A DNA stretch of 64,000 bases, from the NCBI GenBank assembly GCA_022819825.1, contig JAJEGM010000013.1:1-64000 (forward strand), written 5' to 3'. Each line of letters opens with the position of its first letter. The first letter of the stretch is position 1. The position numbers were made by a program, and so were the translations under genes. The stretch is from Acidimicrobiia bacterium (lineage in GTDB: Bacteria > Actinomycetota > Acidimicrobiia > Acidimicrobiales > Bin134). Positions 22,829 to 37,968 of this stretch are shown here, piece after piece. Under the pieces are notes generated by a model. It saw only the letters and a list, made by a program, of their open reading frames with translations, was not told the DNA's origin and searched no databases.

Positions 22829-24677
<1,849 letters not shown>

Positions 24678-24727
24678 GTTGTCGCCCTTAGTCTGCCACA
24701 GACGGCTAGCGGTTCCTATGGCGACTT

Positions 24728-25948
24728 CTACTTCCTCAGGGAGACGGTGAAGCGGGATTCTTCTTCGGAGAAGTCCGGTTCGGTGCCATTGTGCTGCGCC
24801 ATGGCGGGGATGACCTGTCGGCGGATGCCCATGCCCAGCCCCTCGACGTAGCCGTAGTCACGCATGATGCTCATCATCACCTGGTTACGCGCATAGCGGG
24901 CTCCTTCACGCATGCCCTCGACGCTGATGGTGTTCGGCAGGCTCCCAGGACTCTGCACTTCGATTCGATCGTCGAAGACCGATAACAGCACATCGGTCCC
25001 AGTGATGCTGTAGTCGCGGTGTACAAGTGCATTGACAACAACCTCGCGAATGGCTGGTTCAGGGAAATCGGGGCGCTCGACACGGCGACCGTCCTCCAGC
25101 GCTGCGGAGGCGCCTGTGTTGCGGCGGACGAAGTCGAGAGCCCTTTCCACGACTCCGGTTTCGACTAACTCACCGTCGACTGAGCGCAAAGCCACTAGCG
25201 GGCCCTTGATGCTCTGGTCGGATCTCGTGGCATAGTCGGACTCTTGGCCCGGGAAGCATACCGCCCGAATTCCGCATTGCGGCAAGAATCGCCCTGTGTT
25301 CAGGCCGAACAGGAGCATCCCGTCGACGGTGGCGTACGTTTCACCACCGGTTTCGGTGGCAAGCTCGAGGTTGCAGAGCAGCCTGCGCCACGACTCTGAA
25401 TTGGGGCTGGGCATCTCCGCATCGCCGCGGATGCGGACGAAGTAATCTTGAAGGCGTCGTGTGTCGAGATCGGCAGCACTGGCTCCTGGTACCGGTTTGA
25501 GGCCGTAGCGGAGTCCACCCGACTGCTGGTACAGCCGCTGTTCCTCCTCGCGAGTCGAATCGCGTGTTGTGGTGCCGACACGGACCTTTGTAACCCAGTG
25601 CGACCCCTGTTTGGACTTGTACGGTTTGTCGGGTGCGTTGGCTGGCACGGTCACGATGCCGACCATGATGCCGCCGTCAGACTCGATGACCTCCCAGTTC
25701 GGGATGATGGAGGGCTCCAGGTGATCGCGAGCAACCTGCATGATCCACTCCTCGGCTCTTGCAACCGCACGCGATAGCCCGGAGACGCCGCCGTCGTCCT
25801 CGACGCCGAGCAGCACATGTCCGCCTTCTAGGTTCAGCAGTCCAGCGAGCACCGCGGCGAGCTTGCCCGGTTGTGTGTCGTCCCGCTTGAATTCCACGCG
25901 CGAGTTCTCACCGGTGGCAATCAGCCGTAGCAAGTCGGTCTGGTTCAT
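24728..25948 (-). CDS. AlbA_2 (Schlafen-like) domain plus GHKL-type ATPase protein
   Basis: ENSRVEFKRDDTQPGKLAAVLAGLLNLEGGHVLLGVEDDGGVSGL; C-terminal IREVVVNALVHRDY...RIEVQSPGSLP. Confidence 0.85.
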   Translation of the reverse strand: MNQTDLLRLIATGENSRVEFKRDDTQPGKLAAVLAGLLNLEGGHVLLGVEDDGGVSGLSRAVARAEEWIMQVARDHLEPSIIPNWEVIESDGGIMVGIVTVPANAPDKPYKSKQGSHWVTKVRVGTTTRDSTREEEQRLYQQSGGLRYGLKPVPGASAADLDTRRLQDYFVRIRGDAEMPSPNSESWRRLLCNLELATETGGETYATVDGMLLFGLNTGRFLPQCGIRAVCFPGQESDYATRSDQSIKGPLVALRSVDGELVETGVVERALDFVRRNTGASAALEDGRRVERPDFPEPAIREVVVNALVHRDYSITGTDVLLSVFDDRIEVQSPGSLPNTISVEGMREGARYARNQVMMSIMRDYGYVEGLGMGIRRQVIPAMAQHNGTEPDFSEEESRFTVSLRK

Positions 25949-25957
25949 CAGTTGCCT

Positions 25958-28675
25958 TCAGAAGCCATACTTGCGACGGCGGCGCTCGAAAGCCTCTTTG
26001 CCGCCTTCGAGGATTTCCTCTACCAGTGCCCGAACCGACGGCGTATCGATGGACCCCATGTGCTCCGGTCGGAGAAAAGCCCGTCCTTCATCATCGCCAT
26101 CGTCGACATCACCCTTCGCATCAAGGCCCAAGATGAGTTCAGCATCACCCAGTACGGGAATATTCGCATTGTGCGTTGAGAAGACAAATTGGCGCTGCCT
26201 CTTGTTCTCCCTCATTTTCTCGACGATGACCTCGCTTATGAAGCGGTTGTCGAGATCGTCCTCAGGTTGGTCGATTATCAGCGGAGCATCAGATTCAAGC
26301 AGCAATAGCAGCAGCACGGCAGTGGCTTTCTGGCCTTTCGACAGTTTGCCGAGCGACTGCCACAACTCATCGCCGGTACTGCCCGATGTGTTCAGGAGCA
26401 GCTCAGTGGTCGGCTGCAACTCCAACTCTTCAATCTTCATCAGTGTGCTTTCGCCCCCGCCGGCGATGCTCTCTGCTTGTTGTCGGGTGATGCTGTAGTG
26501 CTCGGCCAATTCCGCGGCACCATTACGGCATCGAGCCACGAGATCTGTGAGGGACAACTCATCGGCTGATTCGAGTTGCCGGATCGCGACGTCTAGCCGA
26601 CCGCCAATCTCGTCTCTCAGCAAGGCTGTCAATGGCGCCCGATCGCCTGCGGCACTGACTTCAACCCGGACGTATCCCTTGAGTCGCTTGTTCACACGCT
26701 TCGCAGCGCCGACAAGCTCGCGGAATTGGGTGGCTTTGACGCCCTCCCACTCGTCAAGCAAGTTTCGTCGTCGTTGAAGTTCCTCGCTACGCAGTTTCAC
26801 GAGTGCTGAATGCCGCTCTTCGAGGGGACGCAGATTCTCAATACTGCGCCGCAAGCGGATGAAGTCCTCCCCGTCAACGGCTGACTTCTGTAGTTCGCGA
26901 AGGATTGCCTCGTATCGCTCGTCGATCACCGCCTTGTGTTCCGACCACTCCGAGGTGATGGTGTCGATGCGTTGCTCAGCTCGCTCCAACACGCTCTCGA
27001 CCTGCTGTGCGACCGATTCAAGTGCGTCGCTCAACTCAATCAGAACTGCATTTGCCGCATCGAGGATCGGCGCGCCGGGCAAGTCGGCTAGCGCGCGCGA
27101 TGAAACGAAGGTGCGGTCGAGAGGCAACTCTTGGCGCAACGTCGCCAGGACTTCGCGTGCTGGCTGAAGGCGTTCCGGGATGGAGTCAACGATCCGGGAC
27201 TCGCGAACCAGCAAACTCTGGTCTTTGAGACGGTCTTCGAGACCAGCTTCTTGAAACCGTTCCAAGGTTTCTTCAAGCTGGGGCAGTTCGGCAAGGCGCT
27301 CGTTGATCGAGGCGAGTTCTTCGTCGGCTTCGAGTATCGCTTTGCGGGAGGCTCGCAGTTCGCGCTGAATGCTTGCCTTGCGTGCTTCGAGGTCGGCATC
27401 GGAACGCACAAAGCGGTGGAGTAGCCGGGTGAGTTTGGGGCCGCTGCGGGTGAGTTCAGATATCTCGTGCTGGCCAAATACCTCAGCTCGAGGCAGCACG
27501 TCAATCGGCCGCAGGTTCGATACCTGGCCCTCGTCGTCGCGAACGATGGGCGGATTCGGAACGGTTCGCTCAATGCGATATTGGCGCTCGGCAGGATGCA
27601 GCGAACGCACCAGCAGCGACACCTTGGTGCCGCTTCGGAGCACATGACGGACGATGTCGCGGTGGGCATTGAGTGCTTCGTCTCCAACAGGTTCGAGATC
27701 CAAGGCGTACCGAATGCTCTCGATCACGGTCGACTTTCCTGTCCCGCGTCCGCCTATGAGTACGTTTAGGTTCGGATTGAGGTGAATCGCGCCGCCGTCA
27801 AGAAAGCCTCCGCCCTCCCACGTGATGGCCGCCAACTCCGAGTGCTCCTCAGGTTCCTCGTCGGAGTTGAGGCGGACACGCGAATCAGGATCGAGGAAGG
27901 CCTGTCGCAGCCCTTCGACGCTGGGCTGACCAGCAAACTTGATCAGAGTGGTCGCTCCCTCGTTGTCTAAGTCGTCCAAGCAGGCCACATCCTTGGCATT
28001 GACCACGGCAATCGCTTGACGCTTGCCAGCCTTGTAGGCGCGTTCATACTCCGGCACTTCATTCCTGATGATTGAGCGCTCCCCTTCGTCGAGTTCATCA
28101 ATCGACGAAGGAATCTGTATTGCCAATAAATTCTCGTTTTTCCACGCGAGCGCTCGCGCGCTCTTTTGAAGGGCCTGAAAAAGCCCCTTCGACCCAACGG
28201 CGTGTGCCGCGATAGCGATCCCACCCTGACGGGAAACCATCTTCAAAATCGTGGCGAAATCCTTGCTGCACGCCTCTCGTGACGGCTGGGGATTTAGGAT
28301 GCCGAACTCGCCTAGGAGCCGGCCGAGTCGGTCTGTAGCGGCATCTGCGTCGTAGATGCACAGGACGTGAATGCCATCAGTCGACTCAAGCTCGAAACCT
28401 GGTAGCACGGTCACGCCTGAACCGCGTGCAGCCTCGTGGAAGGCTGCGATGTCTTGAATGCTGTTGTGATCGGTGATCGCGAGAACGTCGATACCGAGCT
28501 CTTGGGACTTCTCCACGAGACTTGCCGCATAGCTATGCGCGTCGCCGAGGTTGGGTGAGCTTTTGTAGCTCTCGCCATAGTGATGTGGGTTCACCTGAAG
28601 TGCGCACCGCACGAAGTGAGCACCTGATGGCCTTTCCAGCGCATTGGCGATCACGTCTGGTTCGGATGTGTCCAT
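25958..28675 (-). CDS. PHP-domain plus SMC/AAA-type ATPase (TrlF/PPL-like putative antiphage protein)
   Basis: N-terminal NPHHYGESY, LAITDHNSI, GFELES; Walker A LIGGRGTGKSTVIESI; LSKGQKA signature; Walker B PLIIDQPEDDLDN. Confidence 0.85.
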   Translation of the reverse strand: MDTSEPDVIANALERPSGAHFVRCALQVNPHHYGESYKSSPNLGDAHSYAASLVEKSQELGIDVLAITDHNSIQDIAAFHEAARGSGVTVLPGFELESTDGIHVLCIYDADAATDRLGRLLGEFGILNPQPSREACSKDFATILKMVSRQGGIAIAAHAVGSKGLFQALQKSARALAWKNENLLAIQIPSSIDELDEGERSIIRNEVPEYERAYKAGKRQAIAVVNAKDVACLDDLDNEGATTLIKFAGQPSVEGLRQAFLDPDSRVRLNSDEEPEEHSELAAITWEGGGFLDGGAIHLNPNLNVLIGGRGTGKSTVIESIRYALDLEPVGDEALNAHRDIVRHVLRSGTKVSLLVRSLHPAERQYRIERTVPNPPIVRDDEGQVSNLRPIDVLPRAEVFGQHEISELTRSGPKLTRLLHRFVRSDADLEARKASIQRELRASRKAILEADEELASINERLAELPQLEETLERFQEAGLEDRLKDQSLLVRESRIVDSIPERLQPAREVLATLRQELPLDRTFVSSRALADLPGAPILDAANAVLIELSDALESVAQQVESVLERAEQRIDTITSEWSEHKAVIDERYEAILRELQKSAVDGEDFIRLRRSIENLRPLEERHSALVKLRSEELQRRRNLLDEWEGVKATQFRELVGAAKRVNKRLKGYVRVEVSAAGDRAPLTALLRDEIGGRLDVAIRQLESADELSLTDLVARCRNGAAELAEHYSITRQQAESIAGGGESTLMKIEELELQPTTELLLNTSGSTGDELWQSLGKLSKGQKATAVLLLLLLESDAPLIIDQPEDDLDNRFISEVIVEKMRENKRQRQFVFSTHNANIPVLGDAELILGLDAKGDVDDGDDEGRAFLRPEHMGSIDTPSVRALVEEILEGGKEAFERRRRKYGF

Positions 28676-28678
28676 TCG

Positions 28679-28792
28679 CTAGTTCTCCGGGCCTTCGAGA
28701 TCGCTCATGATTCTTCTATAGGCCGAGTCATACAGCAACCACGAATAAGGTTCGATCCGGTCCGCCGGTTGAAGGGAGAGTTCGGCCCTCAA
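28679..28792 (-). CDS. Putative small protein, 37 aa, TTG start (not in the ORF track)
   Basis: (M)RAELSLQPADRIEPYSWLLYDSAYRRIMSDLEGPEN* in the DUF499-TrlF gap, ends 3 nt before the TrlF start codon. Confidence 0.45.
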   Translation of the reverse strand: MRAELSLQPADRIEPYSWLLYDSAYRRIMSDLEGPEN

Positions 28793-28826
28793 TCGCGGCA
28801 GCTCAGTCTATTCCGTGGCATTTGGC

Positions 28827-31634
28827 CTAGTTGGTGAGATCGTGATCGAGGCCGAGTTGGCGCAATCCTTCGGCGACGGTCAGGTCTAGTGTGGTGCGGG
28901 GGATGCCATCAGGGTGGGTGGCAGTGACTTCGACGTTGATGGTCACGTCGGCACCGGTGGCAGCGAGGGGCATAATCGCGACCTTGACCACATCGCGGAT
29001 TTTGTCGGCAGGGATCTGGTGGGTGGTGAGGGTGACCCTGGTCGGATCTTGGTCTTCCTTAACATCAGACTGCTGATCTTCTGAGTTTTCCGTAAGAGTG
29101 ATCTCGGCCCCAGGCTCTGAACCAGTTGTTGATTGAGCCTCTTCAGACTTCTTGTTCTGACGGCGAGCGTCGATCAGGGGTTTGATGTCGGCAGCGCGTA
29201 CAAGCCAGGTGCCGGGTTGGAACTGGATCTCGGTCGGGTCTAGCGGCTCCCCGAAGCGCAGAACGGCATCAGCAGCATCCCAGGAGGCACCCGATGCCAA
29301 GCCGAACAGGTTGGCACTCACCCCTTGTTCTAGGCAGCGGTGCAGCACATCGGGATTTGCGATCTTCGGTAGCCGGGGCAGCCGATAGAAGTAATCCAAC
29401 AGGCGGTCAAGCTCGACCGCAGACTCGTCCGAGCCAATCACGCCGAATCGTTCGGAGAGCAGGGCTGCGGGTGCGAGCGTGGTGTCAATCAGCCGGTCGG
29501 TGGCCTTGAGATGTTCAACCACCCGTTGGCAAATGGTGTCACCAACCCGAGCCGGGCCGAGATCCACGGTTTCGACTCGTACGCCACCACTGCCGTCTGG
29601 CCCAAGCAGAATGAGGTGCCGGTAGGCCATTACAACTTCTTGGGGTAGTCGCTCTTCAACGGCCTTCAGCCGGTTAGCTAGCTGGTCTCGCTGATCTTGG
29701 TTGAACCTCTTTAGGCGGATGCTGTCCTTGGTGATTTCCCGCATGGCCACCACGGTGCGCGCTGCCTGGCGGGCCTTGGTCACACCACCGGCATCGGCAG
29801 CCACCAGCGCCAAGGCGTTCTTGTTGGATCGGGATGAGCCCCGCCCAGTGTTGAGGATCACACCTGCCACCTCTTCCGCCTCAGCAGCGGCGCTGCCAGG
29901 TTGGTTGCCGACTGCCCGGTGTGGGGCAAGCACACCGATGGTGAGACGGGGCTCGTCGACCACATCGCTGGGCTCAACGACATGGGGAACCACTCTGAAC
30001 GGGGCTACCGGTCCAGCGACTTGGCCGACTGTTTCCCGCAACAGCGCGGTGATCTCTCCGTCGCCGACTGCGCCCTCACGCTCCACGATCACCTTGTTCA
30101 GGTTGGGCTCGGTGGTGAACCGATAGCGGCCGCTCTCGTAGCGCATGTACCACAGCGATCCGGCCAAGGCATCACGCACATCGTCCAGCACTCCTCGGGA
30201 CAAGCCGGGAATCGGCTGGGCGACACCGACCAGCATCTGCGGAGGTGAGGCACCAAGAACCCGGTCAGAGCCGAAACTGTTGAGGAATGCCGTCGTGGCT
30301 AGGCCTACCGCCACCCGGTTCTTCTTGATCTCTCCCCCTCTCCGTTCGTCCTCCACCACGGCTTTTGAGTCAGCTCGGATGATGTCAGCGTTGAGTGCCG
30401 ACTTGTAGGACTCGCCGGCGAATCTGATGACCTCAGCCCGGACTCCGTCGTCGGCGAGGGGAACATCGCCGGGGCTGATGAGCAATCCCTGATGGTTGAG
30501 CTGAGACAGCGCCTTCACGGTGTGAGCCAGCGTGCGCAACGCCCCTCGGGTGCGCTGGAATCCCGACAACGACCCCCAGCGGTTGGTAAGCAGGTCAATG
30601 AGCTCCGGGTGGAACGGATAGGCACCGCAGATGCGGCCTCTGTATGAGGGGTCGCGATAGGACTGGGGCAATACATCACCCATCTGCTCATACCAGGTTC
30701 CGTAGGCATCGGCTACTGCCTGTCGCTGCTCGAAACTGCCGATAGTCTCGAACAGACGAGTGTGCAGGATGGGGAAGATGTCGTCGCCCTCCACCGGAGT
30801 GACAATGTTCTCGGTGCGGCCCACGACTTTTGAAAGCCGCTCTGCCATCTCTTGTCCGGCAACAGTCGAATAGTCCTCCAAGCGCGACGAGGTGAGGGTG
30901 GCGACCACCGCGACACCGGGCACGTTGGAGGCTGCGGTGCAGAGCTCCTTGATCACAGTGAGCGTGGTGGCCGCCAGGTTGCCGTCAACCGAGCCCACCT
31001 CCAGTGCCTTGTTGAGATACTCCAGTGTCTCGTCAAGCAGGATCAAGCACGGTGCCGCTTCGCTGAGCAGCTTGACCATCTCCACTGTCGAAGTGCCGCG
31101 CAGCCCCTCATCTTTGGGCCGTACTGACTCATACGCTGCGGTACCCCCGAGCCGCCAGGCCAAATGGCCCAGGAAAGAACGCACGACAGTGCCATCGGGC
31201 ATCGTCTCGGGATCGACAGTGAGCGCGGAGCCGTCCAGCACCGCAACTCGGGCTGTCGGCAGGTTTCCAGTTCTAAAGAGTGCGGCGAGGTCTCTTCCCA
31301 GTTGTGTGTTGGCCACCCGCTCGGGAGCGCCGAACAGGTGGTACGCGGCCAGCAGTGTGTGGGTCTTGCCCCCGCCAAACTCTGTCTGCATCCGAAACAC
31401 TGCTGCCGACCCCATGTCGCCGCCCAGCCGGTTGCCCACTTCCACCAGCACGGATTGCAGGTTCTCAGTCAAGTATGTCTTGGCCGCGAACAACTCAGCA
31501 TCCACATAGTCGGCGGGGCCCATCCCATTTGCTACCAGGCCGAGGTCGGCAGCAAATAGCGACTCGTCGAATGACCCGTCGCGGATGTCTGCGTGGGGCC
31601 GGGCGATGTCGACCCACGGTGCCAATTCGGTCAT
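28827..31634 (-). CDS. DUF499-type AAA ATPase, defence-associated
   Basis: 935 aa; FRMQTEFGGGKTHTLLAAYHLFGAPE Walker A; APCLILLDETLEYLNKA Walker B. Confidence 0.85.
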   Translation of the reverse strand: MTELAPWVDIARPHADIRDGSFDESLFAADLGLVANGMGPADYVDAELFAAKTYLTENLQSVLVEVGNRLGGDMGSAAVFRMQTEFGGGKTHTLLAAYHLFGAPERVANTQLGRDLAALFRTGNLPTARVAVLDGSALTVDPETMPDGTVVRSFLGHLAWRLGGTAAYESVRPKDEGLRGTSTVEMVKLLSEAAPCLILLDETLEYLNKALEVGSVDGNLAATTLTVIKELCTAASNVPGVAVVATLTSSRLEDYSTVAGQEMAERLSKVVGRTENIVTPVEGDDIFPILHTRLFETIGSFEQRQAVADAYGTWYEQMGDVLPQSYRDPSYRGRICGAYPFHPELIDLLTNRWGSLSGFQRTRGALRTLAHTVKALSQLNHQGLLISPGDVPLADDGVRAEVIRFAGESYKSALNADIIRADSKAVVEDERRGGEIKKNRVAVGLATTAFLNSFGSDRVLGASPPQMLVGVAQPIPGLSRGVLDDVRDALAGSLWYMRYESGRYRFTTEPNLNKVIVEREGAVGDGEITALLRETVGQVAGPVAPFRVVPHVVEPSDVVDEPRLTIGVLAPHRAVGNQPGSAAAEAEEVAGVILNTGRGSSRSNKNALALVAADAGGVTKARQAARTVVAMREITKDSIRLKRFNQDQRDQLANRLKAVEERLPQEVVMAYRHLILLGPDGSGGVRVETVDLGPARVGDTICQRVVEHLKATDRLIDTTLAPAALLSERFGVIGSDESAVELDRLLDYFYRLPRLPKIANPDVLHRCLEQGVSANLFGLASGASWDAADAVLRFGEPLDPTEIQFQPGTWLVRAADIKPLIDARRQNKKSEEAQSTTGSEPGAEITLTENSEDQQSDVKEDQDPTRVTLTTHQIPADKIRDVVKVAIMPLAATGADVTINVEVTATHPDGIPRTTLDLTVAEGLRQLGLDHDLTN

Positions 31635-31646
31635 AGCGCCTGCCTA

Positions 31647-34295
31647 TCAGAAGGAAAACTGGAGTTCTTCATAGCTGGTTGCCGGCTGCTTCGCCGCGGC
31701 ATCGGCCAGGCGTTTATGTGAGGTGGCGAGCGCCTGATACATCGTGCGCTCCCGCTCCCCCTCGGGGAGCACTTCTGCCAAAGCTCGGGCCACGTCCCAG
31801 AAACCAGGAATGGTCCCAAAACTCGATGTAGCCAGCACATCAACCACCTCGTTGGCCCGCCCCGCCTCCCAGAGCTGGGCGGCCACGTGCAGCACATCGA
31901 TCAGCGGGCTATCAGGCCGCAGCCGAATGTCGGAGCGCTCATGGGGGCCAAGCAGTGAGAAGTTCTTGCCCTTGCGGCTGACCATCCCACCGGGCAAAGT
32001 CACATCGTCGAGGCTCACTGAGAATGCCCGGGACAGTTTGATGGCCTCATCGGCGGGGACGGGCACCGTCAGGTATGCCCATCGCCAGGTGACGTAGAGC
32101 AGGGATCGGTCGTCAAGCACGCCGAGCGTATCGGCGGCGAGCAGGCGTCCCATCGCGTGGCGGGCAACTGCCTTGCGGGCCAGCTCCATGAGGTCGCCGA
32201 TGGACACCTCGGTTCCATCCAAGCGGGTGACCGAGCGATGGCGGGCGAACACCTCGAAGGCCGGGCCTATGGCCGATACGAAATAGTCCGCGCCTCGCAG
32301 CCCCAAGTCCTCAAACTCATTCAGCCGCTGGCCGACCACTCGGTTCAGCTCGGCCTCTACTTCGTCATAGAAGGCATCGCCGGCCTCGGTGTTGGGCCGG
32401 CACACCAGCACCACCGAACTGGCCAAGGTCGCCTTGACATGGGCCACCGTCCGCCCGGCCATCTCCGAGCGGATGGGCCAGGAGGTGGTGACGCTCAACC
32501 CGGCGACCCGCAGCGCGCGCAGCAGCTTCTCCCACGCCTTGACCGCAGTGTGGGCGAAAACCAGTGCCACCACCCCGTCGGGTTTCACCACCCGGGCCAC
32601 CTCCGACAGCGCGTCGGCGAGCCGCCGGTCGAACTCTTCTTCGGAGATATAGCCGTCCATGCCGGGGCGACAGCGATTCTGAACCACTTCTTGGGCTTTT
32701 GGGGTCCATGGGGTGGCGAAGTGCTCGGGGTACAAATGCCCGACCGAGCGCTTGAGCCACACGTAGAAGAAGTCCGACAGGTCGGAGTACATCACTGAGA
32801 AGTAGTAGGGCGGGTCAATGAGCACGGCATCGAACTCGCCATCGGCGAAGGGCATGGCCCGGGCGTCGCCCCGCAGCACCCGCGCCGGACCTTCGCCGGT
32901 CTGCGAGCAATGCTCGATCACCTTGCCGATTGCAGTCACCGCGTCGTCCCAAGAACCAGACCCAGTACGGAACGGGTAGTTCTCGCAGAAGTCCCACCGC
33001 ATCTGCACTGTCTGACCGGGAAACGTGCCCCGAATCGTCTCGCGGTTGGTGGCCCAACTAGAAAACGCCGAATTCCGGTCGGCCACTTTGTCAAGAGCGA
33101 AGGCAAGGTAGGTGGCAACCGCCCGAGCACGGTCCGCTACCATTCCCTCTCCCAGCATCTCCCTGTGGGCAGCGCGGATGTTGGCGCTCAGCGTCGCATA
33201 GAGCACCAGTTGCCGGTCGGTGTATAGCGACCGCCATGTGCGGTAGCCATAGGGCAAGAACTGCAAATTTCTGTAGCCGACCTCGTCAACCTGTTCATCG
33301 GGCAGGCGAGCCGTTCCGTCGTCGAACTCGTCGTCGACCAGGGCAGGAAGTTCGTCGGCCGCCAACACAGGAGCCTCCGACTCAACCGGAGTCGGCGCGC
33401 GATAGGTGCGCTCTCGCCCGTCAACGTCGCAGACGGCGTACAGCCGATAACCGAAACCGTGGGCTGTCCCGTGGGCTTTCACGTCGCGCTGGGGCGCGGT
33501 GACCGCCGAGATCGGGCAGGTGACGCTTCCCGCTGACTCGAATCCATCTCTCAGGGTCGGGTCGTCGGGAAGCTCGCCCTGATGGACTTCAATGTCCACG
33601 CCGTCCGGCGTCACCGAGGTAGTCACCCAGGCGTGGCGGCGCCCCTCAGCCAACAGCCGAGAGCTGAGAATCGGAATCTCGACCTTCCGGCCCGGGTCGG
33701 GACTGGGCATGGTCCGCACCCAGAAGTAGTAGGGAACCGGCGGGCGGCTTTCGGCGGCGGGATAGAGATGGGCCACAGCTTTTTCGGTTTTCTCGGCCAC
33801 CCACCCCGCCCATCGCTCAACGTCCACCACCAGGGTGTTGCGTCCGTCCAGGTCTGTATCCCCGAAGCGCTTGGGATAGTCAAGAGAGGCCAGCTCCACC
33901 AGATGGGCAACCGGGTTCAGGTCCATGGCTGTGGTGTCACAGCCCAGTCGCATGGCCTCCAATGGAATGGCGCCCCCGCCCGCAAAACAGTCGAGCACCT
34001 TCGGCGGCTGCAAATGGTCTTGCCGGATTCGCTTCTTGAGCCAACCCACCGCATCGTTGTAGAGCAGTCTCTTGGGGGGCATCGCTTCGGCGATCTTGGA
34101 CAACACTTCGCTGGCATCCGCGGCTTCGTCGATCAGCGCTGCCGCGGCCATGGCCCGGGCCATGGGCAGCGGACGACGGGCCCACCAGGTGTGCAGAGTG
34201 GAGATATGCCCGTCATGGGTGCGCTTGTCGGTGTCCGACGCGTGGTTGATTGCGGCGAGCGGGAGCGCCGCCTCGATCAGTTTCCGCCTGGTCAT
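31647..34295 (-). CDS. DUF1156-type adenine-specific DNA methylase
   Basis: N-term KLIEAALPLAAINHASDTDKRTHDGHISTLHTWWARRPLPMARA; VLDCFAGGGAIPLEAMRLGC; DAVLIDPPYYFSVMYSDLSDFFYVWLKRS. Confidence 0.9.
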   Translation of the reverse strand: MTRRKLIEAALPLAAINHASDTDKRTHDGHISTLHTWWARRPLPMARAMAAAALIDEAADASEVLSKIAEAMPPKRLLYNDAVGWLKKRIRQDHLQPPKVLDCFAGGGAIPLEAMRLGCDTTAMDLNPVAHLVELASLDYPKRFGDTDLDGRNTLVVDVERWAGWVAEKTEKAVAHLYPAAESRPPVPYYFWVRTMPSPDPGRKVEIPILSSRLLAEGRRHAWVTTSVTPDGVDIEVHQGELPDDPTLRDGFESAGSVTCPISAVTAPQRDVKAHGTAHGFGYRLYAVCDVDGRERTYRAPTPVESEAPVLAADELPALVDDEFDDGTARLPDEQVDEVGYRNLQFLPYGYRTWRSLYTDRQLVLYATLSANIRAAHREMLGEGMVADRARAVATYLAFALDKVADRNSAFSSWATNRETIRGTFPGQTVQMRWDFCENYPFRTGSGSWDDAVTAIGKVIEHCSQTGEGPARVLRGDARAMPFADGEFDAVLIDPPYYFSVMYSDLSDFFYVWLKRSVGHLYPEHFATPWTPKAQEVVQNRCRPGMDGYISEEEFDRRLADALSEVARVVKPDGVVALVFAHTAVKAWEKLLRALRVAGLSVTTSWPIRSEMAGRTVAHVKATLASSVVLVCRPNTEAGDAFYDEVEAELNRVVGQRLNEFEDLGLRGADYFVSAIGPAFEVFARHRSVTRLDGTEVSIGDLMELARKAVARHAMGRLLAADTLGVLDDRSLLYVTWRWAYLTVPVPADEAIKLSRAFSVSLDDVTLPGGMVSRKGKNFSLLGPHERSDIRLRPDSPLIDVLHVAAQLWEAGRANEVVDVLATSSFGTIPGFWDVARALAEVLPEGERERTMYQALATSHKRLADAAAKQPATSYEELQFSF

Positions 34296-37200
34296 GGCTG
34301 TGCCTCTGCGGCATCTATGACTGGCTGGGGGGCGACCCGATAACGCACATCGAGCTTGGATGACCAGGCGCTGGCCAATGCCTTGGCCGGATCTTGCACC
34401 CGATAGAGACGGGGATTGGGAGTGGCGCAGTCAAGCACCACATACAGCCAATAGTCATCTCCCAGTTCAAGGGCCTTGGCGAACTCCGACCAGGTCAGCT
34501 CCACACCGCCCACTCCGGCCCGGCCCTTCACCTCGATGCAGCGTCGGTCAATGCCCGTAAGGGAAAGCAGGTCGAAACCGATCTTTTGCGCTTCAACCGA
34601 TTTCACGATGTCAGCACCGCGCACATCGGTCTCGTAGCGCGTCGCCTCCCTCACCGCGATCTGCTCTATCTCACGGCTGGAGAATTTGCCAGTTGTGTCA
34701 ATGGGACCGTCGTCGCCCACGGTTTTGCTGGGAACCACCAGCGCCGTGGCAATGATCCGCACTGGACCGCGTTTCACATTGCGAGAGCGCCGGGCTTTGT
34801 CCAGACGCTCTTCCCGTTTCGCGGCGGTCTCTGCCGCCGCGAGCTCGGCTTGTCGGCGGCGGCCCTCTGCGCCGGCCACCCCGCGCTCAACCTCTGCATC
34901 GAGGTCTAGCAGGGCGGTTTGCTGACGGGCCGCTATCTCTGCGAATGCCTTGGTGAGGTAGTCCTCGGTGATTCGAACGACCCGAGTCCGCTCGGTGCTG
35001 GCCTGCTGGAAGTGAGGCTCGAACTCGTGCTGCCGCGCCCAGTTCACCACTTTGTCGACGTCGGAAAGAGTCATCTCGGGTACTTCAGCACCATGAATGA
35101 ACATGTCATACAGCAGCTCACGGCTTGGTCTGAGAGCTTGGCCCTGCGGTTCGGCAACGGTGGCAAATGCCCGGTGGACCATCTCGCCGGTGCCGTCCAC
35201 GCAGTCTCCGGTGAGGAAGAACAGGACTGCTGGCGCATCAACGTCGGGGGCGGCGAACACCGCTCCTGCCTCCACATCGGCCCGAGTGCGGACGATAACG
35301 GTGTTGAGCGCTGCATCGAAGAGGGGGTGGCCAGGACCGCATAGCTCAGCCTCTGGGACGGCGTGTTCGCCTCCGCCGCTGTGCGCCCGCAGGCGAACTG
35401 CTTTGTCGAAGGTGATGCGCTCATAGCTCGGATACACCTCTCGGGTTGCACCAGCGGCTCGAGACCCCGCTACCAGTTCGTCGGGCGTGCGGGTCACTCG
35501 CAGGGTGCCGGGGTCCAGCCGATCCTCGACTCTGCCTCCCAAAAAGTCCACTGCGTCGGTGAAGAACTTCTCGATGTAGCCGGGCGGGAGTCGTCGCTCG
35601 GCTGCCCGAGCAGCGGCTTCAGCTTGTGATTGCCAGTCGAGGTACCGGGTCGCCAGAGCCTCTTTGGTGAGCTCGCGGAACCTTGCCTCCGTCTCGGGAT
35701 CGGCTTGGTCTCCGCCAATGCTCTCCGCCGCGTCGTCAGGGCTGATTTCTTTGGCCAGTACCTGCTCGATCAACTCTGCCAGGCGATATCCCGCAAAGGT
35801 CTCCCCGATCACGTCGAACACCTTGTCCCCGAGAACTCGGCCCATATTCTCCAACTTCTGGAGAAGGGTGGCCAGCACATGGCCCTCAAGGGTGTTGGCG
35901 GCGACCATGTTGTAGATATGCACATCGCGGGTCTGGCCGATGCGGTGGATGCGGCCCATGCGCTGTTCCAATCGGTTCGGGTTCCACGGGATGTCGTAGT
36001 TCACCATCAGATGGCAGAACTGGAGGTTGATGCCCTCTCCGGCGGCCTCGGTGGCCACCATGACCTGGGCCCGATCCCGAAAGTCCCTTTCCGCGGCAAT
36101 CCGGTCTCCCAGCCTCATGCCACCGTGGATGGAAACCACATCGAAGTCTGGCGACAACTTCTCCACCAGATAGTGGAGGGTGTCGCGGTGCTCGGTGAAG
36201 ATCAGCAACTTGACCGACGGATCGTCGCTCAGGCCCTCTTGGCGCACCACTTCGAGCAACTCGTTCAGCTTCACCTCCGTGCCCGCTGCCTCAGCCTCCT
36301 CGGCCTGGATGAGCAGGGGGCGCAATGCGGTCAACTCCTCCTCCAGCTCCGTGATGGTTCCCGGTAACCACTCCTCGAGGGCTCTCTCTTCCATCTCCCA
36401 GCGCTCGTCTTCGTTGAGGTCGCCCAACTCGTCGGGATGCTGTTCGCCGTAGACGTCGGAGATGAACTCCTGGCGGCTCCGCAGATAGGCCGCGGGGTCT
36501 TCCAGCGCTTGTTCCAAGCGATTGACACGGCGCTCCAAGGTGCGCTTGATGGCCCGGAGCGACGACGCCAGCCGCCGCTGCATGGTAGTGAGCGCAAAAC
36601 CGGCAACCCGCGGGCCGCTCTCGCCTCGGATGCGAGCCAGTTCGGTGGACACAAAGCTGGTGACCGCTTCATACAAGTCCCGTTCCGCGCCCGCGAGGTT
36701 GTAGGCCACCGTGTGCGGGTGACGGGGCTTGAACAGAGCTTCGCCCCTCATGTCCACCATCTCCTCCTTGGCAACCTTGCGGTACTGGTGGGGATTCAGC
36801 GGCACATCGCCTGAAGGGCAGCGGTCGCCATAGGCGTCCGGGTCGAGCAAACGAAGCAGTCCCCACATTGATTCGTTGCGACCCGAGTGCGGCGTGGCCG
36901 TCAACAGGATCAGACGATGCGCCTTCCGGGCCACCACTTCAGCCGCCTTGTAGCGCTCGCTGCGCCTTTTAATCAGACCTTTGCTGTCGACATCAAGCGT
37001 GAACCCGTGAGCCTCGTCGACAATGGCCAAGTCCCACTCCCGCTCAGCTCCGGCAAACCCCTCCAACACCTCCTCTCGCCGGAGCAAATCCCGCGACACC
37101 ACCACCAAGTCGTGCTGATCCCAAGGGTTCTGTGTCGGGTGGGCATGCAACATTGCCGAGTCGAACTGAGTGCAGTGGATGTCGAACCGCTCGGCCAGCT

Positions 37201-37699
37201 CCCGCTGCCACTGCGGGCGCAAGTTGGCCGGGGTAACGATCAACACCCGATCGGCGGCATGGCGCAGCATCAGTTCCTTGATGTAAAGCCCAGCCATGAT
37301 GGTCTTGCCAGCGCCTGGATCGTCAGCCAACAAGAACCGCAGCACCGGCTCCGACAGCAGCGACCCATACACCGCGTCAAGCTGATGGGGCAGAGGCGAG
37401 ATATTCGACACGGCCAAAGCGGCCATGTCGTGGCGGAACATGTTCTCAATCCGCAGCGCCTCCACCCCCAGCCGAAATCGGCGGGGATCTCCGCTGAAGC
37501 GAACCGGTCCCGCCGATGACATCAGCTTGATCTCTGGTACTTCAGCCTCAGGTAGTGTGACCTCGCCCAGGCTGCCGTCCGAACCCCGATAGACGATCTC
37601 CCAGAATGCCCCCTGGGTGACCTGCACCAGCGTCACCACATCATCGTCCCCAGGCAAACACACCCGGGCGCCCTTCACCAGCTGGTCAGGATCGGCCAT
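34292..37699 (-). CDS. SNF2-family helicase with C-terminal DUF3883/PD-(D/E)XK-like domain (DrmD-like)
   Basis: LADDPGAGKTIMAGLYIKEL, IVDEAHGF, LTATPHSG, NRLEQRMGRIHRIGQ; C-term GFDLLSLTGIDRRCIEVKGR. Start placed at MADPDQLVKG; ORF opens at 37747. Confidence 0.88.
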   Translation of the reverse strand: MADPDQLVKGARVCLPGDDDVVTLVQVTQGAFWEIVYRGSDGSLGEVTLPEAEVPEIKLMSSAGPVRFSGDPRRFRLGVEALRIENMFRHDMAALAVSNISPLPHQLDAVYGSLLSEPVLRFLLADDPGAGKTIMAGLYIKELMLRHAADRVLIVTPANLRPQWQRELAERFDIHCTQFDSAMLHAHPTQNPWDQHDLVVVSRDLLRREEVLEGFAGAEREWDLAIVDEAHGFTLDVDSKGLIKRRSERYKAAEVVARKAHRLILLTATPHSGRNESMWGLLRLLDPDAYGDRCPSGDVPLNPHQYRKVAKEEMVDMRGEALFKPRHPHTVAYNLAGAERDLYEAVTSFVSTELARIRGESGPRVAGFALTTMQRRLASSLRAIKRTLERRVNRLEQALEDPAAYLRSRQEFISDVYGEQHPDELGDLNEDERWEMEERALEEWLPGTITELEEELTALRPLLIQAEEAEAAGTEVKLNELLEVVRQEGLSDDPSVKLLIFTEHRDTLHYLVEKLSPDFDVVSIHGGMRLGDRIAAERDFRDRAQVMVATEAAGEGINLQFCHLMVNYDIPWNPNRLEQRMGRIHRIGQTRDVHIYNMVAANTLEGHVLATLLQKLENMGRVLGDKVFDVIGETFAGYRLAELIEQVLAKEISPDDAAESIGGDQADPETEARFRELTKEALATRYLDWQSQAEAAARAAERRLPPGYIEKFFTDAVDFLGGRVEDRLDPGTLRVTRTPDELVAGSRAAGATREVYPSYERITFDKAVRLRAHSGGGEHAVPEAELCGPGHPLFDAALNTVIVRTRADVEAGAVFAAPDVDAPAVLFFLTGDCVDGTGEMVHRAFATVAEPQGQALRPSRELLYDMFIHGAEVPEMTLSDVDKVVNWARQHEFEPHFQQASTERTRVVRITEDYLTKAFAEIAARQQTALLDLDAEVERGVAGAEGRRRQAELAAAETAAKREERLDKARRSRNVKRGPVRIIATALVVPSKTVGDDGPIDTTGKFSSREIEQIAVREATRYETDVRGADIVKSVEAQKIGFDLLSLTGIDRRCIEVKGRAGVGGVELTWSEFAKALELGDDYWLYVVLDCATPNPRLYRVQDPAKALASAWSSKLDVRYRVAPQPVIDAAEAQP

Positions 37700-37761
37700 T
37701 CTGGTTCCAACATCGCCCCCCGAGCATCCGAGCACTCTACCCACCACCGGTGACGCTTGCT

Positions 37762-37792
37762 CCGACGCTCCTCGGCCCCCCGCGTGGTTGTC
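37762..37792. repeat. Right copy of the 31-nt imperfect direct repeat (riboswitch 5'-half remnant)
   Basis: ccgacgctcctcggccccccgcgtggttgtc. Confidence 0.7.
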
Positions 37793-37895: not shown

Positions 37896-37968
37896 GGGGC
37901 TACCCGTGGTCGGGCCGGTGAAGGACTTGACACCCGGCCGGGAGGGTTCGATCCCCTCTAGCTCCACC
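37896..37968 (+). other. tRNA-Ala/tmRNA-like element (acceptor and T arms intact, non-canonical middle)
   Basis: GGGGCTA...GAGGG-TTCGATC-CCCTC-TAGCTCC-A-CC; 7-bp acceptor with G3:U70-type pair and 5-bp T stem; no standard D/anticodon arms. Confidence 0.5.

Follow-up and report, generated by a model that had tools for sequence, protein, structure and literature searches.

A composite island of an Hma operon and a TrlF-TrlG module at the thiC-pgi junction of a member of the Acidimicrobiia

Do five co-directional genes of apparently antiviral type, packed between thiC and pgi, form a single unnamed defence system, or were known systems brought together at one site? The window, by which we mean the whole 64,000-nt stretch of DNA that was analysed, comes from a 3.44 Mb genome in 57 contigs. 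Among named genomes it comes closest to Ca. Poriferisocius and other MAGs of the Acidimicrobiaceae, so the organism most likely belongs to the Acidimicrobiia and lives in association with sponges. A check of the open reading frames recovered exactly the five minus-strand genes of the original prediction (24728-37747) and their tight junctions: trlG and trlF are separated by 9 nt, trlF and hmaC by 151 nt, and hmaC and hmaB by 12 nt, while hmaB and hmaA overlap by 4 nt. Profile searches (PADLOC, Pfam, and NCBIfam) bore out the predicted domains of all five proteins, and no integrase or transposase was found inside the island, again as predicted. The description as a putative antiviral island in a housekeeping context also holds, with only defence-family genes at an otherwise empty thiC-pgi junction. 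This junction is flanked by thiE and thiC with a TPP riboswitch on one side and by pgi followed by FtsX-type permeases on the other, and the remaining genes of the window that we examined belong to ordinary metabolism. GC content is about 65-68% in the flanks, 58% in trlF, and 62-64% in the rest of the island (hma). What did not stand is the idea of one five-gene combination. Both Hma and TrlF/TrlG (TRL) are named and occur separately in sister species, and the island joins a complete Hma operon to a TRL module, a composite of two known cassettes rather than a new five-gene system.

By their profiles and motifs, genes three to five make up a complete operon of Hma, a system named by Payne et al. 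2021 (PMC8565338) and reclassified as a Type-1, DUF499-centred BREX-related (BR) system by Rakesh & Krishnan 2026 (PMC12839542). The PADLOC check proposed with the original prediction matched all three profiles (HmaA, 649 bits; HmaB, 375 bits; HmaC, 466 bits over residues 3-930), and the genes are adjacent and co-directional. HmaA (34292-37747, minus strand, 1151 aa) consists of SNF2 and Helicase_C domains, with a helicase core like that of RapA, followed by a PD-(D/E)XK-like NOV_C (DUF3883-type) domain at residues 1028-1115. There, D1059 and K1074 are kept in 12 of 12 homologues and E1072 in 11 of 12, a motif consistent with an SNF2 helicase that carries a C-terminal PD-(D/E)XK nuclease. According to PMC12839542, one helicase-nuclease of this kind gave phage defence in an experiment by another group. 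HmaB (31647-34295, minus strand, 882 aa) is a DUF1156 DNA methyltransferase of the adenine type (PF06634), with a (D/N)PPY motif, D494-P-P-Y497, that is kept in 20 of 20 sequences. HmaC (28827-31634, minus strand, 935 aa) is a DUF499 AAA+ ATPase with Walker A and Walker B motifs kept in 27 of 27. As in other Hma/Type-1 BR loci, helicase-nuclease, adenine methylase, and ATPase are thus encoded in a single operon; the window differs in that trlF and trlG come after it and in that HmaC lacks the optional N-terminal HEPN extension of DUF499 ATPases (Walker A at residue 87 versus 245-279 in HEPN-type sequences), a fusion reported in 1370 of 2446 Type-1 taxa (PMC12839542). PADLOC, Pfam, and NCBIfam profiles for PglZ, PLDc, and DUF3780 matched none of the five island proteins, which excludes BREX (types 1-6) and Type-3 BR, whose core loci include PglZ, and Type-2 BR, which has an HKD/PLD nuclease on its helicase and a DUF3780 gene. 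Single-sequence PDB searches with HmaB, HmaC, and TrlF gave nothing useful. Judging from these families, Hma would both methylate and cleave DNA. Hma occurs a second time in this genome (L030; G000:C49:1-19900), there with an HmaC of the HEPN type, and the genome has a further DUF1156-type methylase (G000:C57:69410-72025); the methylases of both are ~36% identical to the HmaB of the window.

The other two genes correspond to trlF and trlG of the trlR-trlF-trlG temperature restriction locus of Photorhabdus (PMC7554251). TrlF (25958-28675, minus strand, 905 aa), the predicted sensor or regulator of TrlG, joins a PHP domain to an SMC/Rad50-like ABC ATPase with a coiled coil, and scores 523.8 bits against NCBIfam NF045780 (cut-off, 350). 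Its AF2 model (pLDDT 87.6) matches the ATPase heads of SMC, MukB, and Wadjet JetABC as well as the PHP domain of RNase AM, and its profile weakly matches AriA of PARIS. The ABC motifs are invariant. The canonical PHP motif I (DxHxH) is absent and replaced by ALQVN, which is kept in 42-43 of 45 homologues; since the other metal-site residues (H70, E95, H103, H158, and D229) are invariant, the PHP site appears to be rewired, not decayed. Directly downstream lies trlG (24728-25948, minus strand), encoding a predicted toxic RNase effector of 406 aa with an N-terminal SLFN_AlbA_2 domain (AlbA_2/Schlafen-type, tRNase-like) and a C-terminal HATPase_c_4 (GHKL) domain. A profile of 46 TrlG sequences matched Schlafen 8/13, SLFN14, and SLFN12 (E = 1.9e-5 for 5yd0 and 1.2e-4 for SLFN14), and the AF2 model (pLDDT 89) matches 3lmm, the tRNase domain of SAMD9, and SLFN11/13/14, followed by histidine-kinase ATPase domains. 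The catalytic triad of SLFN13, E205/E210/D248 (PMC5862951), aligns with E14/E19/D51 of TrlG when mapped by hand from the profile alignment; E14 is kept in 46 of 46 sequences, E19 in 43 of 46 (otherwise D), and D51 in 39 of 46. From its families, TrlG would be expected to cleave RNA. Mutations by which Photorhabdus escapes growth restriction fell in trlG, whereas trlF, although the larger gene, had none (PMC7554251); this pattern would follow if toxicity resides in TrlG. The same source places AlbA_2 at residues 14-128 (14-126 here) and trlG after trlF as in the window, with the locus in the polA/dsbA interval rather than beside Hma. The regulator gene trlR, which has about 79 codons and precedes trlF in Photorhabdus, has no counterpart here, where only the 151-nt gap separates hmaC and trlF; a promoter scan of this gap found none.

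In at least 11 of 21 genomes of the same genus, the site is empty, with 117-357 bp between thiC and pgi. The interval measures 13.46 kb in the window, and 7.24, 6.5, and 1.6 kb in sister genomes G416, G400, and G411, respectively; parts of the window's island are also present in G401 and G409. A 14-bp direct repeat, CCCGCGTGGTTGTC, brackets the island, with its left copy (24670-24683, plus strand) overlapping the 5' end of the thiC TPP riboswitch (24574-24684, minus strand; Rfam RF00059, 58.1 bits), which belongs to the host flank and marks the insertion point, and its right copy (37779-37792, plus strand) just upstream of hmaA. No such pair is expected by chance; G416 (L118) also has the repeat twice, and each empty site examined has one copy. 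The thiC-pgi junction is an integration hotspot. Within it, the cassettes have separate extents of DNA homology to congener loci (blastn, window against these loci; trlFG, ~24725-28750; Hma, ~28825-37699), with a joint at 28750-28825 where homology to trlFG-only loci stops (~28740-28750) and homology to Hma begins (28825-28835). Elsewhere in the sister genomes, orthologues of hmaABC occur without trlFG in G410, G412, and G415 (L123-L125), and trlFG occurs without hma in G404 and G406 (L126-L127). The cassettes moved independently. The closest Hma within the genus (80-90% identical) is without trlFG and the closest trlFG there is without Hma, so that the two may have come together here only recently, and perhaps by coincidence. 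In the interval between hmaA and pgi, positions 37896-37968 resemble the acceptor stem and T-arm of a tRNA (GGGGCTA...GAGGGTTCGATCCCCTC TAGCTCC ACC); this stretch matched nothing in Rfam or ARAGORN and has no second copy in the genome, and a similar stretch is found in the G407 and G416 junctions.

Whether the pairing means anything beyond a shared hotspot was examined across genomes. Among 398 Actinomycetota genomes, TrlF exceeded its cut-off in 14 and HmaC was found in 41, and four of the five closest TrlF loci adjoin or sit inside Hma genes (one with an hmaA remnant only). These four show three gene orders: hmaA-trlFG-hmaB, hmaAB-trlFG-hmaC, and hmaABC-trlFG. A scan of 85,462 species for trlF gave 79 loci from many phyla, in most of which trlG directly follows trlF, and hma genes are closely linked in nine. 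With tight junctions, trlFG lies between hmaB and hmaC (L007/L111, L046, L049, and L054), between hmaA and hmaB (L006/L065 and L067), or ahead of hmaB-hmaC (L043 and L060). Other trlF loci lie within or next to operons of Type-2 BR, BREX, type I, or type III systems, as in pglX-[trlF-trlG]-pglZ of BREX-1 on a Vibrio plasmid (L147) and hsdM-hsdS-[trlF-trlG]-hsdR of a type I system on a Citrobacter plasmid (L141); neighbours also include Mod/Res, BrxL, PglZ, and Type-2 BR genes (the last, e.g., at L053). In 50 trlF-bearing genomes with 50 HmaC loci above 150 bits, six HmaC loci (five Type-1 and one Type-2 BR) fell within trlF neighbourhoods against 0.245 expected (P ~2e-7), under a null of uniform placement that does not correct for the tendency of defence genes to cluster. 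A random association of these gene groups, named in the original prediction as the outcome that would speak against it, is refuted under this null: trlFG recurs in Hma operons of many phyla far above chance. The co-occurrence of both groups is recurrent across phyla but not exclusive; within the genus, the cassettes occur apart. Placed on the TrlF tree, the label of the host system changes 29 times against a mean of 29.7 for shuffled labels, and the Hma label changes 12 times over 13 rows. This scatter indicates many independent recruitments rather than a private lineage, and a dedicated Hma-TrlFG lineage was rejected.

We propose that trlFG is a portable guard or abortive module of modification-based defence, of which this island is one composite example, and we give this reading a probability of roughly 60%. 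Both cassettes would have been acquired at the thiC-pgi hotspot. HmaB would methylate host adenines, HmaC would assemble on DNA and scan it, and HmaA would translocate and cut unmethylated phage DNA through its C-terminal nuclease. TrlF would sense infection, most likely when the modification-based system next to it is inhibited or fails, and would release or activate TrlG, which may then cleave tRNA or other RNA so that growth stops. With less certainty, we infer that what TrlF monitors is the host system and not the phage itself. PrrC and RloC, which are embedded in type I RM loci, likewise pair an ABC-type ATPase sensor with an RNA-cleaving effector, although the effector here appears to be Schlafen-type and not HEPN. 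An ABC-type ATPase sensor and an RNA-cleaving effector beside restriction systems are also the hallmarks of PARIS (AriA/AriB), which senses Ocr (PMC12839542); the module differs from it in that TrlG is of Schlafen/GHKL type and no TOPRIM nuclease AriB is present. Because trlFG sits inside so many operons of methylation-based systems, and because PARIS offers a parallel in sensing Ocr, a guard is the best single explanation. Its most general form, in which TrlFG, with its rewired PHP site and Schlafen tRNase, would be a universal exchangeable guard of methylation-based immunity that fires upon inhibition of whichever host system (Hma, Type-2 BR, BREX, type I, or type III) has it in its operon, is tentative and in our view doubtful. 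In that form, the temperature-restriction phenotype of Photorhabdus would be a guard misfiring.

If TrlFG does sense that its host system has failed, backup immunity in restriction-modification, BREX, and Hma alike could be explained by a single module. The TRL locus, known for temperature restriction, would then be recast as a defence module, and anti-restriction proteins would be expected to trigger TrlG. A role in phage defence is not proposed in the available part of PMC7554251. Hma and Schlafen add-ons have already been described: at least 1017 taxa have a Schlafen protein linked to a BREX/BR locus, and these auxiliary effectors share with TrlG the presence of an AlbA_2 and minimal histidine kinase-type protein near the BR core, while the PHP-ATPase partner TrlF is absent from the main text of that study (PMC12839542). 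Our literature searches found no account of TrlF as a defence protein; an earlier mention of a PHP-ATPase/Schlafen pair may exist. What appears to be under-described is that the Schlafen protein usually has the PHP-ATPase TrlF as its partner, and that this pair is repeatedly embedded in operons of five modification-based systems, an embedding of which the island is a clean example.

The guard reading has to be weighed first against two independent systems that merely share a hotspot, in which Hma restricts DNA and TrlFG is an autonomous abortive pair with a phage trigger of its own. The separation of the cassettes in congeners, their distinct homology boundaries, the 151-nt spacing, and the upstream region that trlF has to itself all agree with this. 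So does the solitary state of many trlF genes: about two-thirds of the 79 loci have no modification system nearby within the available sequence (some contigs are short), and many plasmid trlF genes are likewise alone, which indicates that trlFG can stand alone. Autonomous abortive infection is for this reason a strong rival. Independent stacking would not lead one to expect that trlFG, in many phyla and in more than one system, lies between genes of the same operon with overlaps of 4 nt, nor the enrichment over uniform placement, and we regard it as the less likely reading. Far less probable is one integrated five-gene system in which TrlFG is an RNase layer that replaces the N-terminal HEPN domain of other HmaC proteins. 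The HmaC of the window and most embedded HmaC proteins do lack the extension, but L046 and L054 possess both it and trlFG, and sister Hma operons without trlFG exist. Strict complementation of a missing HEPN by TrlG was rejected on account of these two embedded loci. Sister copies at the same site are broken: in G416 and G401, where trlG and hmaC are ~93-96% identical to the window copies, a 0.9-kb segment encoding a DUF6338 protein takes the place of trlF and the ATG of trlG is lost, and G416 additionally lacks hmaB and half of hmaA. That the island is decaying baggage and no longer active, as the loss of trlF or hmaB from sister copies and the broken versions in G416, G401, and G409 might suggest, is very improbable given five open frames and the intact state of all catalytic residues examined in the window.

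Several loci vary these arrangements. The DUF6338 proteins of the sister loci are of membrane type, and their segments (L118:3799-4712 and L121:2178-3091) retain trlG and hmaC on either side. In Sinorhizobium (L098:12672-13193) and Shinella (L106:2419-2940), the gene directly after trlF is not trlG but encodes a related protein of 173 aa that is assigned to no family. Larger Schlafen-type proteins (546-604 aa) lie between hmaA and hmaB in other Actinomycetota (L031:4208-5848 and L034:2193-4007), without TrlF. A BREX-like locus with PglZ and BrxL (L110:3083-18552) has trlFG twice, with a distant pair (280 bits) first and a closely related pair second. On an archaeal plasmid of Halapricum (L145:5059-17623), trlF and a DUF262 protein in the place of trlG are found among DUF1156, DUF499, and SNF2 genes.
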